Source: Corallococcus sp. NCRR (GTDB lineage Bacteria > Myxococcota > Myxococcia > Myxococcales > Myxococcaceae). From it: a stretch of 64,000 bases of DNA. The notes below the pieces were generated by a model, which saw only the letters and a list, made by a program, of their open reading frames with translations, was not told where the DNA came from and searched no databases. Location: NCBI RefSeq assembly GCF_026965535.1, contig NZ_CP114039.1, positions 2,604,001 to 2,668,000 on the forward strand. The letters run 5' to 3'. A program made the position numbers and the translations under genes. Below, in pieces: positions 37,669 to 45,272 of the stretch; position 1 is the first letter of the stretch, and every line of letters starts with the position of its first letter.

Positions 37669-39699
37669 GTGGTCCCGCTCGTGCAGAGGGCCCGCCGCGT
37701 GCGTTCCGTCCTCCTCTGCGTCTGGCTGTTCCTGCTGGGTCTGCCCTTCACGGCGCTCGCCGCGACCTATGAGGTAGACCCCGAGGACACGGGGGAGCAG
37801 GCGCTGTTCGCGCTGAGGGAGGACGGCGCCATCACGGCGGAGACGCTGTCCGCGCTGCTGGTGCTGCGGCGCTCGGGCGTGGATGTGGCGCATGCGTCAC
37901 GCGCCGCGCTCTATGCGTTGCCGGGACTGACGTACGCGCGCGTGGATGGGTTCACGGCTTCCGGCGGGCTGACGCTGGAGGAGCGGCGACGGCTGGCGCC
38001 CTTCCTGACGACCTCGGCGCCAGAGCGGGTGACGGGGGATGCGCGCCTGCTGACGGCGTTCGCCGCGTCGGATCCGGTGCTTCCGCCCCTGGCGCTCCAG
38101 GTGCGCGTGGCGGGGCCGGAGGGCTGGCGCGTGGGGTTGCTCACTTCGCTCACGCGGCGACGGCTGGGCTCGGTGCACCGGGACGCGAACCGGCGCGCAC
38201 TGGTGGCGGAGGCGCCCGGTGTGTCGGTGGCCGTGCCCAAGTTCCACGCCCAGTGGACGGGCGAGCGGGCTTCCGTGCTGGTGGGCTCGTACCGGCTGGG
38301 CTTCGGTCAGCGGCTGACGTTGGACACCACGGGACTGCCCACGCCGGACGGCTTCCTGCCTGACGACACCGTGCGAATACCGGACGACGTGGAGCGCTGG
38401 TGCTTTCTGGGAGAGGGTGCCTGCACCCCCGAGGAGCGCGCCGCGGAGGTGACGCCGGACTTCCAGTGGGACGAAGGCTTCCGGGGTGTGGTGGGCACGG
38501 TGCGGAGCGCCTCGGGCGTGTCCGTGACGGGCTTCGGTTCGTACCAGTCCCGTTCGTTGATCTCCCATGCCCTCTGCGAGGGCACCGCATGCAAGGCTCC
38601 TCCGGTGTGGCTCGCGGGGACGGGGGCACCCGTGGGACGCGTGGTGTCGCGCAAGCTGCCCGGCGTGTTTCGCGAGTGGGCCGGAGGCGGCCACGCGGCG
38701 ATGGCGTGGACCCGGCGGGCACAGGTCGGTGTGACGGCCTGGGGCGCACGGCCCGTATGGAGCGTGGAGGGCGCGGTGCTCGATTTCCGCTCCACCGCGG
38801 GCTACCCGGCGGGCGGAGCTTTCGGCGCGGTGGGCGTGGATGGCGCGTGGGGGCTGGGGCCCGTGGACCTCTTCGTGGAAGCGGCGCGCACGTTCGATGC
38901 GGCGGGCGGTGGCTACGGCGCGCTTCAGCGCACGGTGGTGGCGGACACATCGAAGGAGTTGGAGCTGTCGCTGCGTGCCTACGGGCGCGGCTTCGCCAAT
39001 CCCTACACGGGCGCGATGTCCGGCCCGGACGAACTGGAGGGCTCACGGGCGCGAAATGAAGTGGGTGCGCGCGTGCGCTACCTGCACCGGGTGGAGGGCG
39101 CGCTGCGGCTGCGCGGTGAGGTGGATGCATGGACGCTGCCCGCCGACGGCGCGGCGGTGGGCAGCGCCGGCACGGTGAACCTGCGGGCTTCGGCCCGGGT
39201 GGACTGGCGGGCGCATGCGTTGTTCCAACCGTCGCTGTGGGCGGAGTACCGGGACAAGGACGTCGGCGTGGCGGGTGACTGCTTCGACGGTTCGGGCGAG
39301 GACCCCTGTGCAGGGTCGCTCCTGCGCATCACGGCCCGGGTGAAGGCGGAGCTTCACGACGCAGTGTCCGTGGCCGCGCAGTACGCGCATGCCCGCGTGG
39401 ATGATCCAGTGAACCGGGGCGTGCGTGAAGACGCGCATGCGGTCGTGGAGGCGCAGGTGCGGCCGTGCGACGCCGTGAGGCTGCGGGGCCGCGCCGTGTG
39501 GAAGGACGAGGACCTGTCGACGCGCCACCGGCTGGAGCAGGCGTTCCGGGCCACGCTCGATGCGAGCTGGACGGCGGACGCCGTGACGACACGGGCCCGG
39601 TACGCGTGGGTCGTGGACTTGAAGGACGCGACAGGGGCCCGGACGCCGCCAGATGCGCCCCGGCACCTGTTCGCGCTGGAAGTGGAGACGCGGTTCTGA
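37669..39699 (+). CDS. Exported helix-hairpin-helix protein with barrel-like C-terminus
   Basis: This 676-residue protein has a signal peptide (hydrophobic core LLCVWLFLLGLPFTALAA). The mature N-terminus contains ComEA-like helix-hairpin-helix units, the clearest being DVAHASRAALYALPGLTYARV, where the LPGL hairpin normally contacts the DNA backbone. From about residue 140 to the end there are repeated amphipathic strands (VSVTGFGSYQSRS, VELSLRAYGRG and similar) and a terminal Phe (VETRF), as in outer-membrane beta barrels. I read it as an outer-membrane protein with a periplasmic DNA-binding domain. The start is GTG (37669 or 37681). The next gene begins 12 nt after the stop. Confidence 0.65.
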   Translation: MVPLVQRARRVRSVLLCVWLFLLGLPFTALAATYEVDPEDTGEQALFALREDGAITAETLSALLVLRRSGVDVAHASRAALYALPGLTYARVDGFTASGGLTLEERRRLAPFLTTSAPERVTGDARLLTAFAASDPVLPPLALQVRVAGPEGWRVGLLTSLTRRRLGSVHRDANRRALVAEAPGVSVAVPKFHAQWTGERASVLVGSYRLGFGQRLTLDTTGLPTPDGFLPDDTVRIPDDVERWCFLGEGACTPEERAAEVTPDFQWDEGFRGVVGTVRSASGVSVTGFGSYQSRSLISHALCEGTACKAPPVWLAGTGAPVGRVVSRKLPGVFREWAGGGHAAMAWTRRAQVGVTAWGARPVWSVEGAVLDFRSTAGYPAGGAFGAVGVDGAWGLGPVDLFVEAARTFDAAGGGYGALQRTVVADTSKELELSLRAYGRGFANPYTGAMSGPDELEGSRARNEVGARVRYLHRVEGALRLRGEVDAWTLPADGAAVGSAGTVNLRASARVDWRAHALFQPSLWAEYRDKDVGVAGDCFDGSGEDPCAGSLLRITARVKAELHDAVSVAAQYAHARVDDPVNRGVREDAHAVVEAQVRPCDAVRLRGRAVWKDEDLSTRHRLEQAFRATLDASWTADAVTTRARYAWVVDLKDATGARTPPDAPRHLFALEVETRF

Positions 39700-39711
39700 A
39701 GGGAGCGGAGT

Positions 39712-41406
39712 GTGGCGGCTTGGGCAGTGCGGGGATGGGGCGTGCGGTTGGGATTGGGATGGGTGCTGGGGTGGATGGGGGCGTGCGGACTGCCCATGTG
39801 GGAGGAGGAGCCAGCGGCCTGTGATGCGCTGCTGCCTGGGGACCTGGTCATCACGGAGTACCTCAACGACCCCTCGGGCGCGGACACGGGGAAGGAGTAC
39901 GTGGAGCTCCACAACCCCACCCGGGAGACCGTGGACCTGCTGGGCGTCACGCTCTTCACCGCGCGCGATGAAGCGGCGCAGGAGCGCGTCTACACGTTCA
40001 CCACGGGCCTGCCGGTGGACGCGGGGGCCTTCGTCGTGCTGGGCGACGTGCGTGACGGCGCGCTGCCCGAGCACGTGGACCAGACCTATGGGGATGCGCT
40101 CGGCGCGCTGGGCAACAGCGCGGGGCTCCTGGGGCTGCGGTGCGGGACGCGCGTGCTCGACTCGGTGGTGCTCGAAGCGCCCGCGAAGTCGGGCATGGCC
40201 CGGACCCATGACGGCGTGTCGCGCTGGTGCGATGCACCGGGCAGTCCGGGAAGCGCGAACGCGCCGTGTCCCGCGCTGGCGGATGGCGGCGTGACAGCCG
40301 GAGCGACGTGTCTGCCACCGGGCGCGGTCTCTCCCCGGGACATCCAGTCCCCGCGACCCGGAGAGCTGATCATCACCGAGGTGATGGCCAACCCGCGAGG
40401 CGACGACACCGTGGGCGAGTGGCTGGAGGTCCGCGCCACCGTGCCCGTAGACCTCAACGGGCTGACGGTGGGGACGGACACATCCGGTACACGCCTGGAA
40501 TTGGAGCGCTGTCTGTCCCTCGCCGCCGGAGAGTCCGCGCTGCTCGCGCGCAGAAGGGAGCCGGAGGTGAACGGTGGCCTGCCGGAGCCGCTGGCCACGT
40601 TCGCCGTGGACCTGCGCAACGCGGGCGGCGTGGTCGCCATTCGCTCGGGCAACGTCCTCATCGACAGCGCGCTGTATGGCCCGGCCCAGGACGGCGTGGC
40701 CACCCAGATATCCGCGCCGCTCACCAGCGATGCGAAGAACAACGACGTCACGGCGTCCTGGTGCGCGGCCACGGAGGCCTACGGTGACAAGGGCAACCTG
40801 GGCACACCGGGACGGACCAACCGCGCGTGCACCGGGACGGACGCGGGCACGGCGCAGGCGGGCTGTATCGACCGGACCACGGGGCAGACCCGTGCGCTTC
40901 GCGTTCCCACCGTGGGCTCGCTGGTGCTCACCGAGTTCATGGCCGACCCCGCGGTCGTCCCGGATGCGCAGGGGGAATGGGTGGAGGTGCTCGCGCTGCG
41001 GGAGGTGGACCTCAACGGGGTGACGCTCGCCAACGAGTCAGGCGGCTCCGTCCTGGAGTCCCCGCTGTGCCTGTCGATGAAGGCCGGAAGCTTCGCGGTC
41101 CTTGCTCGCGGTGACGACGCTTCACTCAATGGCGGATTGCCCTCGGTGCTCGGCACGTTCGCGTTCGGTCTGGGCAATGGCGCGGGGGCCCATGTCCTCA
41201 AGCTGTCGGCGCAGGGCACCGTCCTGGACTCGGTGGCCTTCACGAACGCCGCAAGCCCCGGCGTGTCGTCGCAGTTGGATGCGCGCGTGCGGGACGCCGC
41301 CGGCAACGACGCGGCCGGGGCCTTCTGTCCCACGCCCTCCGGTGTGACCTACGGCGCGGGCGACCGGGGCACCCCGGGCCGGGAGAACCGGACGTGCGCG
41401 CGATGA
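39712..41406 (+). CDS. Lipoprotein with three lamin-tail domains
   Basis: This 564-residue protein has a signal segment ending in a lipobox-like GACG. Three lamin-tail (LTD) beta-sandwich domains follow, each opening with the typical phrase: GDLVITEYLNDPSGADTGKEYVEL (about 43), GELIITEVMANPRGDDTVGEWLEV (about 217) and GSLVLTEFMADPAVVPDAQGEWVEV (about 402). Bacterial LTDs are surface modules often found with nucleases or other hydrolases. Cys pairs recur at the domain ends. It is preceded by a helix-hairpin-helix envelope protein and overlaps a nuclease-type lipoprotein gene, so the three are probably one operon. The start is a GTG. Confidence 0.82.
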   Translation: MAAWAVRGWGVRLGLGWVLGWMGACGLPMWEEEPAACDALLPGDLVITEYLNDPSGADTGKEYVELHNPTRETVDLLGVTLFTARDEAAQERVYTFTTGLPVDAGAFVVLGDVRDGALPEHVDQTYGDALGALGNSAGLLGLRCGTRVLDSVVLEAPAKSGMARTHDGVSRWCDAPGSPGSANAPCPALADGGVTAGATCLPPGAVSPRDIQSPRPGELIITEVMANPRGDDTVGEWLEVRATVPVDLNGLTVGTDTSGTRLELERCLSLAAGESALLARRREPEVNGGLPEPLATFAVDLRNAGGVVAIRSGNVLIDSALYGPAQDGVATQISAPLTSDAKNNDVTASWCAATEAYGDKGNLGTPGRTNRACTGTDAGTAQAGCIDRTTGQTRALRVPTVGSLVLTEFMADPAVVPDAQGEWVEVLALREVDLNGVTLANESGGSVLESPLCLSMKAGSFAVLARGDDASLNGGLPSVLGTFAFGLGNGAGAHVLKLSAQGTVLDSVAFTNAASPGVSSQLDARVRDAAGNDAAGAFCPTPSGVTYGAGDRGTPGRENRTCAR

Positions 41407-41876
41407 GGACGCATGTCCTGGGATGGCTGCTGCTCACCGTGCTGTCCGCCTGTGGTGGCGGGGAAGGGGAGTGCGGCCCGAGCACAGGCGTGGTGACGAA
41501 GGTCATCGACGGGGACACGGTGGTGCTCCAGGACGGTGAGCGCATCCGCTACCTGCTGGCCGACACGCCAGAGATGACGCAGGGGCACGACGACTGCTTC
41601 GGCGAGGAGGCCGCGGCGTTCAACCGCTCGCTCGTGGAGGGGCGCTCGGTGCGGCTGCGGGACGGGGAGGCGTGCACGGACCGCTACGGGCGGCGGCTCG
41701 CCTACGTGTCCGTGGACGGCGAGGACGTGAACGCGCTGCTCGTGCGGCGCGGCTATGCGTGCACGCTGTTCATCCCGCCGGCCGGTGCCTCCCGGCGCGG
41801 CGAGTTCGAGGCCCTGGAGCTGGAGGCCCGGCGCGCCCGCCGGGGCCTTTGGGGCCGCTGCCCGGCGCCGTGTCCC
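41403..41876 (+). CDS. Thermonuclease (SNase-like) lipoprotein; no stop codon near its end
   Basis: From the ATG at 41403, overlapping the previous stop, the protein has a signal with lipobox LSACG and a staphylococcal-nuclease fold: VVTKVIDGDTVVLQDGERIRYLLADTPE with the first catalytic Arg and the Glu of DTPE, then the second Arg in CTDRYGRRLAYV, and the fold ends about RRGLWGRC. This predicts an extracytoplasmic, lipid-anchored DNase/RNase. Oddly, the frame has no stop after the domain and stays open to 45272 through an opposite-strand gene and into the histidine kinase. The end given here marks the end of the recognisable domain. An in-frame ATG at 41394 is also possible. Confidence 0.7.
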
Positions 41877-41903
41877 AGAGGGCGGCGCGCACCCGCGTCC
41901 AGG

Positions 41904-42611
41904 CTACGGCAGGGTGTCCTTCACCGCCCGGGCCAGCTGCGCGTCCAGCGGCCAGGCCGCGGGGCGGCGCGACGTGGTGAGGTCCAGCGTGCCGTCCGTG
42001 AGCTTCGCCCCGAAGGAGTCCCCCACGAACAGCCGCACCCTGCGCACCCGCTCCCGGAGCACGTCGCCCACGTCGGGCGTCGCGGCCAGCCTGGGCAGCA
42101 CCTCGCCCGCGCGCTCGACGAGCCACGCCAGGGGCTGGATGTGGGCCTCGTGCTCCAATTCCTCGGCCGTGCCGAACTCCGCCGCAACCTTCGTGCCCCA
42201 GGCGGTGGACAGCTTGTCGGCCAGCGCGGGCAGGTGGCGGCGCAGGTGCATGGGCGAGGACTCGGGCATCGACTTCGCGGGCGTGTCCAGCACCGTGGCG
42301 TCGTGCAGCGTGAGCGCCTCGATGACGCCGTCCGGGACGAACGTCACGTCCAGGCCCTCCCCGTGCGAACGGTAGCCTCCGGAGGTGGTGAGCAGCACGC
42401 CGCGGCCCTGGCGGAACTCGCCGTACTCCCGGACGAGCCCTGTAATCTCACGCCCGCTGCGCAGGAACAGCGTCACCTGCGGCAGGTTCAGCGGCAGGCC
42501 CTCGTTGCGGCGGCGCATGAGGATGCTCATCGCCTCCAGCACCTCCCAGACGCTGCGCACATGGCCCTGGGCCAGCGACTCCAGTGGATCCATTGCCTGG
42601 GGCGTGCTCAT
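41904..42611 (-). CDS. Hypothetical protein under a 24-bp palindrome
   Basis: This 235-residue cytoplasmic protein is not recognised. The N-terminal helix (PLESLAQGHVRSVWEVLEAMSI) is followed by a beta-rich part with LPQVTLFLRSGREITGLVREY and GVLLTTSGGYRS, faintly like an Sm-type barrel, then a helical C-terminus. The start at 42611 is chosen over a GTG at 42650 because the latter lies inside a perfect palindrome. It is convergent with the nuclease gene, whose open frame runs through it in the opposite sense. Codon pattern and composition support it as the real gene in this stretch. Confidence 0.6.
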   Translation of the reverse strand: MSTPQAMDPLESLAQGHVRSVWEVLEAMSILMRRRNEGLPLNLPQVTLFLRSGREITGLVREYGEFRQGRGVLLTTSGGYRSHGEGLDVTFVPDGVIEALTLHDATVLDTPAKSMPESSPMHLRRHLPALADKLSTAWGTKVAAEFGTAEELEHEAHIQPLAWLVERAGEVLPRLAATPDVGDVLRERVRRVRLFVGDSFGAKLTDGTLDLTTSRRPAAWPLDAQLARAVKDTLP

Positions 42612-42630
42612 GACCGGCCCTCGCCCCTCT

Positions 42631-42654
42631 GGACGTGGACCCGGGTCCACGTCC
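42631..42654. promoter_or_regulatory. Perfect 24-bp palindrome (operator-like)
   Basis: The half-site GGACGTGGACCC is followed directly by its complement. The centre lies about 31 nt upstream of the start at 42611, in the 396-bp divergent region before the histidine kinase. Its length and perfection suggest a dimeric regulator site, possibly autoregulatory; as RNA it would fold into a hairpin. I see no other gene or clear promoter in 42612-43007. Confidence 0.5.
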
Positions 42655-43007
42655 CCGGGGACGACCGCCCCGTCGCCCGCGCGTCATCGCCCTGCCCGCC
42701 GGTCCTGCGTTCCGCGAATGCCATGGCCTGCTGCCTCCCGTGTGCTTGGGCGTCAGTCTCCCCCAGCTCCCTGTCGGGGCCCAGCGGTTCACGGAGGCCT
42801 CCCATGGCCGCCCGCCATGTCCCCGGGTTCAATCCCAGAGGTGGGCAACCCACCCGACCCCGTCCCGTGGGCCCCATCCATTTCGTGACGCGGGATGTCC
42901 ATCTTCCCTCCACTCCGGCCACGTCCCGGGAGCAGGGGTACGGTGACATCTATTCTTCGAACAGCAGGCGGCCTGCCTCGTCCGACCGGTGCCTCCGGAG
43001 CGTCGGC

Positions 43008-45272
43008 ATGAATCCGTTTGCCTCCACGACGGACTCGCTCGCGGACCTCGTGGAGTCGCGGCGTGAGGACATCCTCCGGCGCTGGGGCGCACGGTTGGAG
43101 CCCCACCCGCCCGGCATGTCCGTGGAGTTCCAGGACCGGCTGGAGGGGATGCTCAAGCTGGTGGACGCGCTGGTGCTCGTCCTCCGGCAGGGCCCCGTGG
43201 AGACCGGGTCCTCGGAGGCGGTCTGGGCCCATGCCCGGGAGCTGGGGCTGCGGCGTTTCCGGGCCGGCGCCCGCGTGGAGACGCTGGTGGAGGAGTACGG
43301 CCTCCTGCGCGAGACCCTCCTCGAGGTGCTGGATGCATCCCACCGGCCGCTCGCCACGGGCGAGCTGCGCACGCTCTGGCGCGCGCTGGACCGGAGCCTG
43401 ACGGAGGCCGTGGCCCACTACGTCCACGAACACGAACACGCGCTGCGCGCCCGCGAACGGCGGCTGCAGGAGATCCTCGACCACGCCCCGGCCGCCATCT
43501 ACGCGAAGGACGCCAGCGGGAGGTACCTCTTCATCAACCGCCCCTTCGAGGCCATCTCCGGGCACGAGCGCGAGTCGGTGCTGGGGCGCACGGACCTGGA
43601 CCTGTTCCCACGGGAGACGGCGGAGCGCTTCCGCTACAACGACCGCCGGGTGCTGGCGGCGAAGACGCCGCTCGTCTTCGACGAGGAGGTGCTCCAGCCC
43701 GACGGGACGCACCTCTACCACACGATGAAGTTCCCCCTGCCCGGCGTCGTGCAGGGGGAGGCGTGGGCGCTGTGCGGCGTGTCCACGGACATCACCACCA
43801 CGCGCACGCTGCGCCAGGAGCGCGACGAGGCCCGCGAGCAGCTCCACCGCGTGCTCACGCAGCTGCCCGTCGTGCTGTGGGCCTTCGACGCGCAGGGCGT
43901 GTTCACCCTCTTCGAGGGCGAGGGCGTGACGTCCACGTCCGTGCCCTCCCGGGTGATGCACGGACGCTCCGTCTTCGACGTGTTCCGGGACCGGCGCGAC
44001 GTGCTGGAGGTCATCCTGCGCGCGCTGGCCGGGGAGCGGCTGTCCACGGAGCTGTACCTCATGGGCGTCTGGTTCGAGGTCCGCCTCCTGCCGGTGTTCG
44101 ACGCGGGCGGGCGCGTGGTGAGCGTGTCGGGCGTGTCGCTGGACATCACCGAGCGGCGCCGGGCGGAGCAGGAGCTGCGTGCGTCGGAGACGCGCTACCG
44201 GCTGGCCACCCTGGCCACCCGCGACATCATCTGGGACTGGGACCTGGTGACGGACGAAATCCACTGGAGCGAGTCCGCGCCCCGCGTCCTCCGGCTGGAC
44301 ACGTCCCGGGGGCCGCCCGTCATGGACACCGCGTGGTGGACGGCCAGCCTGCACCCCGACGAGCGCGAGCAGGTGACGCGGGAGCTGCGCATGGCCATCG
44401 ACAGCGACGAGGGCCACTGGGAGGCCGAGTACCGGATGCGCCGGGGTGACGGGACGTGGGCCTTCGTCGAGGACCGGGGCCGCGTGGTGAAGGACCTCCA
44501 GGGGCGCCCGGTGCGCATGGTGGGTGCCATGCAGGACGTCACCGACCGGCACGAGGCCGAGGCCGAGGCGAAGCGCCGCGCGGAGTTCGAACAGCTGCTC
44601 ATCGGCATCGTGGGCCACGACCTGCGCAACCCCATCTCCGCCATCACCATGGCCGCCACGTCGCTGGCGAAGCGCGAGGACTCCGACTCGCGCGACCAGA
44701 AGGCCGTGGCCCGCATCCTCTCCAGCGCCGAGCGCGCCCACCGCATGCTGCGCGACGTGCTGGACTTCACCCAGGCGCGGCTGGGCGGCGGCATCCCCAT
44801 GGACCCGCGCGAGGTGGACCTCCTGGACCTGGTGCGCCAGGTGATGGACGAGGTGCAGCAGGCCCACCCGGACCGGCGCCTGGAGGTGGCCGGGCGGGGA
44901 GAGGCCCGGCTGTCGTGCGACCCGGACCGGCTGGCGCAGGTCATCACCAACCTGGTGAACAACGCGCTCGCCTACGGAGACGCCCACTGCCCGGTGCGCG
45001 TGTGGCTGCGCGGCCAGCCGGGGGCGGTGACGCTCGCGGTGCGGAACCAGGGGCGCCCCATTCCCCAGCACCTGATGCCGCACCTGTTCGAACCCCTCAA
45101 GCGCGCGCAGACCCAGGACGGCCACCGCAACTCCCACGGGCTCGGGCTGGGGCTGTTCATCGTGAAGCACATCGTGGATGCGCATGGCGGCCGGCTGCGC
45201 GTGCGCTCCTCCGCCCGGGACGGCACCACCTTCCTCGTGCAGCTGCCCCGCCGGCTGCCCTCCGGGGACTGA
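43008..45272 (+). CDS. Multi-PAS sensor histidine kinase
   Basis: This 754-residue soluble sensor kinase has an N-terminal helical RsbU/RsbR-like domain (about 1-145), a PAS domain (about 152-268, ILDHAPAAIYAKDASGRYLF), a second PAS (about 283-390, ending LDITERRRAEQEL) and a third, PAS_3-like (about 395-515, IIWDWDLVTDEIHWS). A HisKA domain follows with His537 in GIVGHDLRNPISAI. The HATPase domain has NLVNNALAYGD and GLGLGLFIVKHIVDAHGG. No membrane segment is present, so it senses a cytoplasmic or bound signal. No response regulator is adjacent. The ATG at 43008 fits the start of the first domain, although the same frame stays open upstream to the nuclease lipoprotein. Confidence 0.9.
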   Translation: MNPFASTTDSLADLVESRREDILRRWGARLEPHPPGMSVEFQDRLEGMLKLVDALVLVLRQGPVETGSSEAVWAHARELGLRRFRAGARVETLVEEYGLLRETLLEVLDASHRPLATGELRTLWRALDRSLTEAVAHYVHEHEHALRARERRLQEILDHAPAAIYAKDASGRYLFINRPFEAISGHERESVLGRTDLDLFPRETAERFRYNDRRVLAAKTPLVFDEEVLQPDGTHLYHTMKFPLPGVVQGEAWALCGVSTDITTTRTLRQERDEAREQLHRVLTQLPVVLWAFDAQGVFTLFEGEGVTSTSVPSRVMHGRSVFDVFRDRRDVLEVILRALAGERLSTELYLMGVWFEVRLLPVFDAGGRVVSVSGVSLDITERRRAEQELRASETRYRLATLATRDIIWDWDLVTDEIHWSESAPRVLRLDTSRGPPVMDTAWWTASLHPDEREQVTRELRMAIDSDEGHWEAEYRMRRGDGTWAFVEDRGRVVKDLQGRPVRMVGAMQDVTDRHEAEAEAKRRAEFEQLLIGIVGHDLRNPISAITMAATSLAKREDSDSRDQKAVARILSSAERAHRMLRDVLDFTQARLGGGIPMDPREVDLLDLVRQVMDEVQQAHPDRRLEVAGRGEARLSCDPDRLAQVITNLVNNALAYGDAHCPVRVWLRGQPGAVTLAVRNQGRPIPQHLMPHLFEPLKRAQTQDGHRNSHGLGLGLFIVKHIVDAHGGRLRVRSSARDGTTFLVQLPRRLPSGD

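Follow-up and report, generated by a model that had tools for sequence, protein, structure and literature searches.

The window analysed here, a stretch of 64,000 nucleotides from the 9.79-Mb, single-contig genome of Corallococcus sp. NCRR, carries three adjoining genes for a probable barrel-type protein with a degenerate helix-hairpin-helix (HhH) domain (referred to as HHB hereafter), a lipoprotein with lamin tail domains (LTD), and a thermonuclease-type (SNase) lipoprotein. The reading that we prefer, to which we give about an even chance of being correct, is that the products of this operon form a unit anchored in the envelope that degrades nucleic acid and most likely salvages it. The component families are known, and their arrangement appears to be undescribed and conserved across much of the phylum; the gene set is not described in the open-licence literature searched. 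To our knowledge, the processing of prey nucleic acid in Myxococcota and the crossing of the outer membrane by nucleic-acid fragments are poorly understood.

HHB is encoded on the plus strand at 37669-39699 (ORF, 676 aa); its start may instead be the alternative GTG at 37681, because a heuristic script favoured this position in the relatives L039 and L040. The predicted protein consists of a signal-type N-terminus, a degenerate ComEA/HhH-type N-terminal domain, and a putative barrel-type outer-membrane domain. The LTD lipoprotein, which is Cys-rich, acidic and probably a scaffold, follows at 39712-41406 on the same strand (ORF, 564 aa). According to the ORF list of the window, the gap between HHB and LTD is 12 nt, and the ATG of the plus-strand SNase gene at 41403 lies on the LTD stop codon in an ATGA overlap. 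Inspection by eye found a signal-type stretch at the start of all three proteins alike, and a lipobox-like Cys in LTD (..WMGAC) and in SNase (..VLSAC). These coordinates agree with the sequence-only reading, which had described three exported proteins encoded with a 12-nt gap and an overlap. Its end coordinate, 41876, has to be given up: this position is about the end of the SNase domain and has no stop codon, and the SNase frame is open to 45272.

The remainder of this frame (41877-45272, plus strand) runs over a convergent gene at 41904-42650 (minus strand) into a sensor-kinase-like frame (ATG at 43008; the kinase was named by eye). The same read-through into the kinase frame is found in three same-genus relatives (L038, L039 and L040); the SNase frame ends at 369 aa in L041, also of the same genus, and a normal nuclease-gene stop is present in L043 and L046, which belong to other genera of the family. 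The GC contents by codon position in 41877-42650 are 0.93, 0.51 and 0.74, and those of the opposite-strand coding pattern are 0.74, 0.49 and 0.94. One real nuclease-kinase fusion at 41394-45272 was rejected, because the codon-position GC fits coding on the other strand and the nuclease stops normally in L043 and L046. By its codon-position GC, the middle part of 41877-45272 appears to be non-coding on the plus strand.

The convergent gene encodes a 248-aa protein, lies next to the operon in relatives such as L039, L040, L041, L046 and L047, and gave no Pfam or NCBIfam match at E ≤ 1. On the upstream side, a putative esterase gene (PF00756; 36732-37505, minus strand) is divergent from HHB and is kept as a neighbour in 21 of 40 family loci. 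Farther upstream lies a putative ATP-grasp-like gene, which is likewise kept near HHB among the 40 family loci examined.

HHB was found in 104 of 195 Myxococcota genomes. In the search within the window's family, it was present in 47 of 59 sampled genomes (its own among them), with one match in each of the 47. A single-protein scan of genome contigs with HHB gave seven loci, six from Corallococcus and one from a Myxococcaceae MAG, and no HHB relatives were found in viral contigs and plasmids. The surroundings of HHB were read in 60 loci: 40 come from the window's family, which has 46 further matches, and 20 from the 22 matches found in other families. In 48 of these loci HHB, LTD and SNase share a strand and a span of 7 kb, and in 54 HHB and LTD do so, as counted with LTD and SNase profiles that were built from those same 60 loci. 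Nine of the 12 loci lacking the full trio lie near contig ends; among these is L117, where the LTD matches reach at most 16 bits. HHB and LTD are present in L074, L077 and L127, and SNase was not found there although the flanks were covered. The linked trio is a genuine feature and no chance grouping. The genes are not scattered in relatives: the conservation across myxobacteria on which the earlier interpretation depended is there.

Outside the 60-locus count stand L132, L134 and L136. HHB, a second nuclease lipoprotein with an OB fold (SNase-OB), LTD and SNase are all present in L134, and L136 has LTD and a partial HHB match, with no SNase found. In L132 (G055:C62:400000-414000), a three-LTD gene occurs alone, without HHB or SNase matches in the 14 kb; no HHB was found in G055, and this gene is an orphan of the set.

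The position of HHB within the cluster is variable: it is the last gene instead of the first in the loci of families f10 and f11 and in the readable loci of f26-f31. On the HHB tree, the gene order changed at least two times with the linkage kept. This tree was made by a quick method from 58 of 61 rows (L117, L124 and L129, whose neighbours are unresolved, were left out), and the placement of L126, L127 and L128 is unsure because of their long branches. These data bear on the explanation that the three envelope genes are merely transcribed together, serve no common function and owe their linkage to inheritance, as the first place of HHB in the resolved loci of the window's family would allow. 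We consider this very improbable, since the linkage outlasts at least two changes of order and the gain and loss of members over several family-level groups, and since an LTD match is also absent in 10 of the 14 window-family genomes without HHB.

The co-occurrence in the 195 genomes is in line with the linkage. At a threshold of E ≤ 1e-20 for the presence of LTD, HHB and LTD occur together in 103 genomes, HHB only in one (G164), LTD only in 11, and neither in 80; the genomes are related, so that these counts are not independent and a Fisher p calculated from them is no true probability. Ten of the 11 LTD-only genomes have E values from 1.5e-57 to 6.9e-24, and G055 has 1.9e-221. Because a few HHB genomes have LTD matches no better than those ten, the LTD tally is no proof of an operon partner in each genome. 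With these 103 genomes and a nuclease adjoining in the 48 loci, a defined gene set is available for deletion and testing.

The sequence of HHB suggests an outer-membrane barrel, as had been read from it earlier. The window protein ends in LFALEVETRF, which has the form of a C-terminal signal of the BAM type. A C-terminal F is found in 52 of 61 members, and in all 52 of these the positions -5, -7 and -9 are hydrophobic. In the 555 aligned family columns that follow the N-terminal domain, the two-residue periodicity has a mean moment of 0.322, as compared with 0.213 (sd 0.016) in 500 column shuffles. Strand-like windows number 21 there, where the shuffles average 13.1 (sd 2.6) and reach 21 once in 500. 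By the same measure, the N-terminal domain is also above the helical value (0.26 vs 0.20); therefore, periodicity alone is not specific for a barrel. Both the C-terminal beta-signal and the alternating periodicity expected of an outer-membrane beta-barrel are present in HHB. An AF2 prediction of the whole protein from the window and seven close relatives reached a pLDDT of 29, too low for use as a model, and the N-terminal domain modelled alone reached 50; since no usable model was obtained, the barrel reading is drawn from sequence signatures. HHB is thus probably a barrel-type outer-membrane protein, and the picture of a soluble first protein without a barrel does not agree with these signatures.

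In the window protein and the 32 members scanned, the barrel region lies outside every Pfam and NCBIfam match. Six Cys columns are conserved in HHB, each in 29 to 32 of 32 members. The conserved Arg residues of the barrel were also considered as a track for polyanions, and this idea was dropped; conserved acidic residues are, by eye, about as many.

The domain of about 100 residues that follows the signal-type stretch of HHB was recognised as an HhH fold through relatives only: HHH_3 matches it in 22 of 32 members and the ComEA model TIGR01259 in 11 of 32 (E ≤ 0.01), and the family profile matches 8dss (ComE operon protein 1) in the PDB with E 1.4e-07. The window HHB itself has no HhH match in Pfam and NCBIfam (its best Pfam match is at chance level, E 0.063), and a PDB search with it alone gave only titin, again at chance level (E 0.76). 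From the signal peptide and the barrel topology, the domain would face the periplasm. HHB may resemble the large HhH proteins of Bacteroidota. The canonical GhG hairpin is a motif for contact with the DNA backbone. Two rows had no readable hairpin; among the 59 readable ones, the hairpin reads LPGLT in 32, the window protein included, and the second Gly is missing in 57, again including the window protein, both Gly being present in two. A DNA-contacting hairpin (ALPGL) had been claimed for HHB, and the DNA-contact reading is weakened by this loss.

The N-terminal domain also raises the question of natural transformation, in which HHB would let DNA through the outer membrane and carry a ComEA-like receptor domain of its own. 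The ComEA matches mentioned above are consistent with this explanation, and Riemerella anatipestifer is described in the excerpted text of PMC8459023 as needing a predicted periplasmic HhH protein and a proposed beta-barrel protein for transformation. The loss of the GhG hairpin, the nuclease within the same operon, and four other HHH_3 places above the cut-off in the window genome speak against it. Moreover, ComEC matches (E ≤ 1e-10) occur in 184 of the 195 genomes, 147 of them above the curated cut-off, as opposed to HHB in 104, and one occurs in 13 of the 14 window-family genomes without HHB. Because ComEC is thus nearly universal with or without HHB, a role in transformation is highly improbable.

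The LTD lipoprotein matches PF00932 with 79 bits (cut-off 34.3; E 4.3e-22) in three stretches, which bears out the three lamin-tail domains counted at first sight. Besides the lipid Cys, 12 Cys columns are conserved. The net charge has a median of -33.5 in 24 members and is -26 in the window protein. As to the function of such domains elsewhere, the LTD is tied to an extracellular nuclease in ExeM; according to an excerpt of PMC6085458, it is dispensable there for the degradation of extracellular DNA in vivo, and its absence lowers the activity in vitro. In Izemoplasmatales, an LTD-nuclease protein lies within putative DNA-degradation loci, as the available part of PMC8289736 states. Because the LTD lipoproteins are strongly acidic and the LTD of ExeM is dispensable in vivo, obvious unspecific DNA binding is not suggested for them. 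If the degradation reading is true, a lamin tail domain protein of bacteria would thereby gain a function.

The third protein was confirmed as an SNase-type nuclease with a lipobox-like Cys: it matches PF00565 with 70.5 bits (cut-off 21; E 1.9e-19) and the thermonuclease 4iun in the PDB (E 3.8e-16), the alignment to staphylococcal nuclease running through the IDGDT, DTPE and YGR motifs. The active-site set of Asp, Arg, Glu and Arg is kept in all 26 members, and we take these residues to be the equivalents of staphylococcal D21, R35, E43 and R87. A further Asp, the D40 equivalent, is Asn in three of the 26. Six Cys columns are conserved besides the lipid Cys. Both RNA and DNA are cut by SNase enzymes, so the substrate may be either.

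The SNase-OB lipoprotein, mostly 370-450 aa long, lies inside the cluster in 27 of the 60 loci. Of 18 members scanned, all have the SNase domain and nine match the OB fold (PF01336) with E ≤ 0.01; the single OB score given does not reach the cut-off. The catalytic residues are kept in 18 of 18, and no conserved Cys pairs were found. SNase-OB is present in 37 of the 195 genomes, and HHB is present in all 37; in G192-G194, three genomes of f31, its match lies on another contig than HHB. The 16 genomes from the genus of the window gave no match to it. A small LTD lipoprotein is an extra member in some groups. In four loci of family f11 (L118, L120, L122 and L123), a third SNase-like lipoprotein is encoded on the opposite strand between the LTD-SNase pair and HHB.

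Among the operon proteins, only the nucleases are clearly nucleic-acid enzymes. The view that all three families are linked to nucleic acid stands for the nucleases, whose catalytic residues are kept, and is less secure for HHB with its degenerate hairpin and for the acidic LTD protein. The retained nuclease residues of these envelope proteins, together with the periplasmic side expected for the HhH domain, would also suit a periplasmic barrier, in which phage or environmental DNA that comes in is destroyed by lipoprotein nucleases seated in the inner leaflet of the outer membrane and HHB serves as an organiser. The conserved cysteines would suit a location on either face of the membrane. We regard such a barrier as quite improbable.

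Under the preferred degradation reading, HHB would span the outer membrane as a barrel, its HhH-type domain facing the periplasm, and the multi-LTD lipoprotein would be a disulfide-braced scaffold on the outer membrane. Exposed at the surface and in a physical complex with them, the SNase lipoprotein (accompanied in many relatives by SNase-OB) would cut DNA and/or RNA from lysed prey or matrix. The HHB barrel would either let short products pass inward or seat the lipoproteins at the surface, and the purpose may be nutritional. A breakdown of nucleic acid at the envelope is suggested because one or two envelope nucleases are tied to a barrel and a scaffold. The HhH domain without its GhG hairpin and the acidic LTD protein offer no account of how nucleic acid would be captured, which counts against this reading. 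Salvage would fit predatory bacteria: according to a partial text of PMC9073016, many DNA hydrolases are secreted by Myxococcus xanthus, which may feed on DNA under nutrient-poor conditions. A genome survey of activated sludge counts against the degradation reading: in the excerpt of PMC11495043, the predicted outer-membrane-bound nucleases are few (10), mainly from Bacteroidota. So do the loci with HHB and LTD in which SNase was not found (L074, L077, L127 and L136), the lone LTD of G055, the SNase-OB matches away from the HHB contig in three f31 genomes, and the lack of conserved Cys pairs in SNase-OB. The sequence-only reading had proposed that the set captures and degrades, or takes up, extracellular DNA. 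The degradation of extracellular or prey nucleic acid survives as the best reading, and both uptake by transformation and capture by a DNA-contacting hairpin lose ground.

The operon can finally be compared with known systems. Like ExeM of Shewanella, which acts on extracellular DNA with LTD, OB-like and EEP domains (PMC6085458), the set brings LTD, OB-type and nuclease functions together beyond the cytoplasm; ExeM is one polypeptide with an EEP nuclease, whereas the operon has separate lipoproteins, SNase nucleases and a barrel, and the ExeM model NF033680 scored 11.6 bits on the LTD protein against a cut-off of 1300. The SNase shares its family and, by sequence, its catalytic residues with the staphylococcal-type nuclease, and differs from it as a lipoprotein with extra conserved cysteines and as an operon partner of HHB and LTD. 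The N-terminal domain of HHB relatives is ComEA-like in the profile matches given above. HHB differs from ComEA by about 550 barrel-type residues after the domain, the loss of the GhG hairpin and the linkage to a nuclease; with its 676 aa and barrel signatures, it is not a small barrel-less periplasmic receptor.

Slam exporters consist of a periplasmic domain and a barrel and adjoin lipoprotein genes, their N-terminal domain being TPR. HHB likewise appears to join a periplasmic domain to a barrel beside lipoprotein genes, and its N-terminal domain is HhH-type, not TPR. It might therefore be a dedicated Slam-like exporter or anchor that places LTD and SNase on the surface, with degradation outside and no import through HHB. 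The order of a soluble domain and a barrel-type domain, the linkage to lipoprotein genes in changing order, and the variable number of lipoproteins (SNase-OB, the small LTD, the third SNase) beside an HHB that is single in each of 47 genomes agree with this explanation. The Pfam and NCBIfam matches of 32 HHB members (E ≤ 0.01) contain neither a Slam-type barrel nor a TPR domain, and G055 keeps an LTD lipoprotein without HHB. On balance, we give such an exporter a small yet real chance.

In the SusC/D-type units of Bacteroidota, an outer-membrane barrel, a binding lipoprotein and a hydrolase lipoprotein are encoded in one locus. The operon has the same layout, with LTD and SNase in the places of SusD and the glycan enzymes and without TonB parts: TonB plug and receptor domains are absent among the Pfam matches of 32 HHB members (E ≤ 0.01). 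This likeness leads to a tentative extension of the degradation reading, to which we give a modest chance: HHB and the LTD and SNase lipoproteins may form a Myxococcota nucleic-acid "utilisome," in which a barrel with an HhH-type gate imports the cut fragments directly. If true, it would be a non-TonB counterpart of the SusC/D systems, and HHB would represent a new outer-membrane transporter family.
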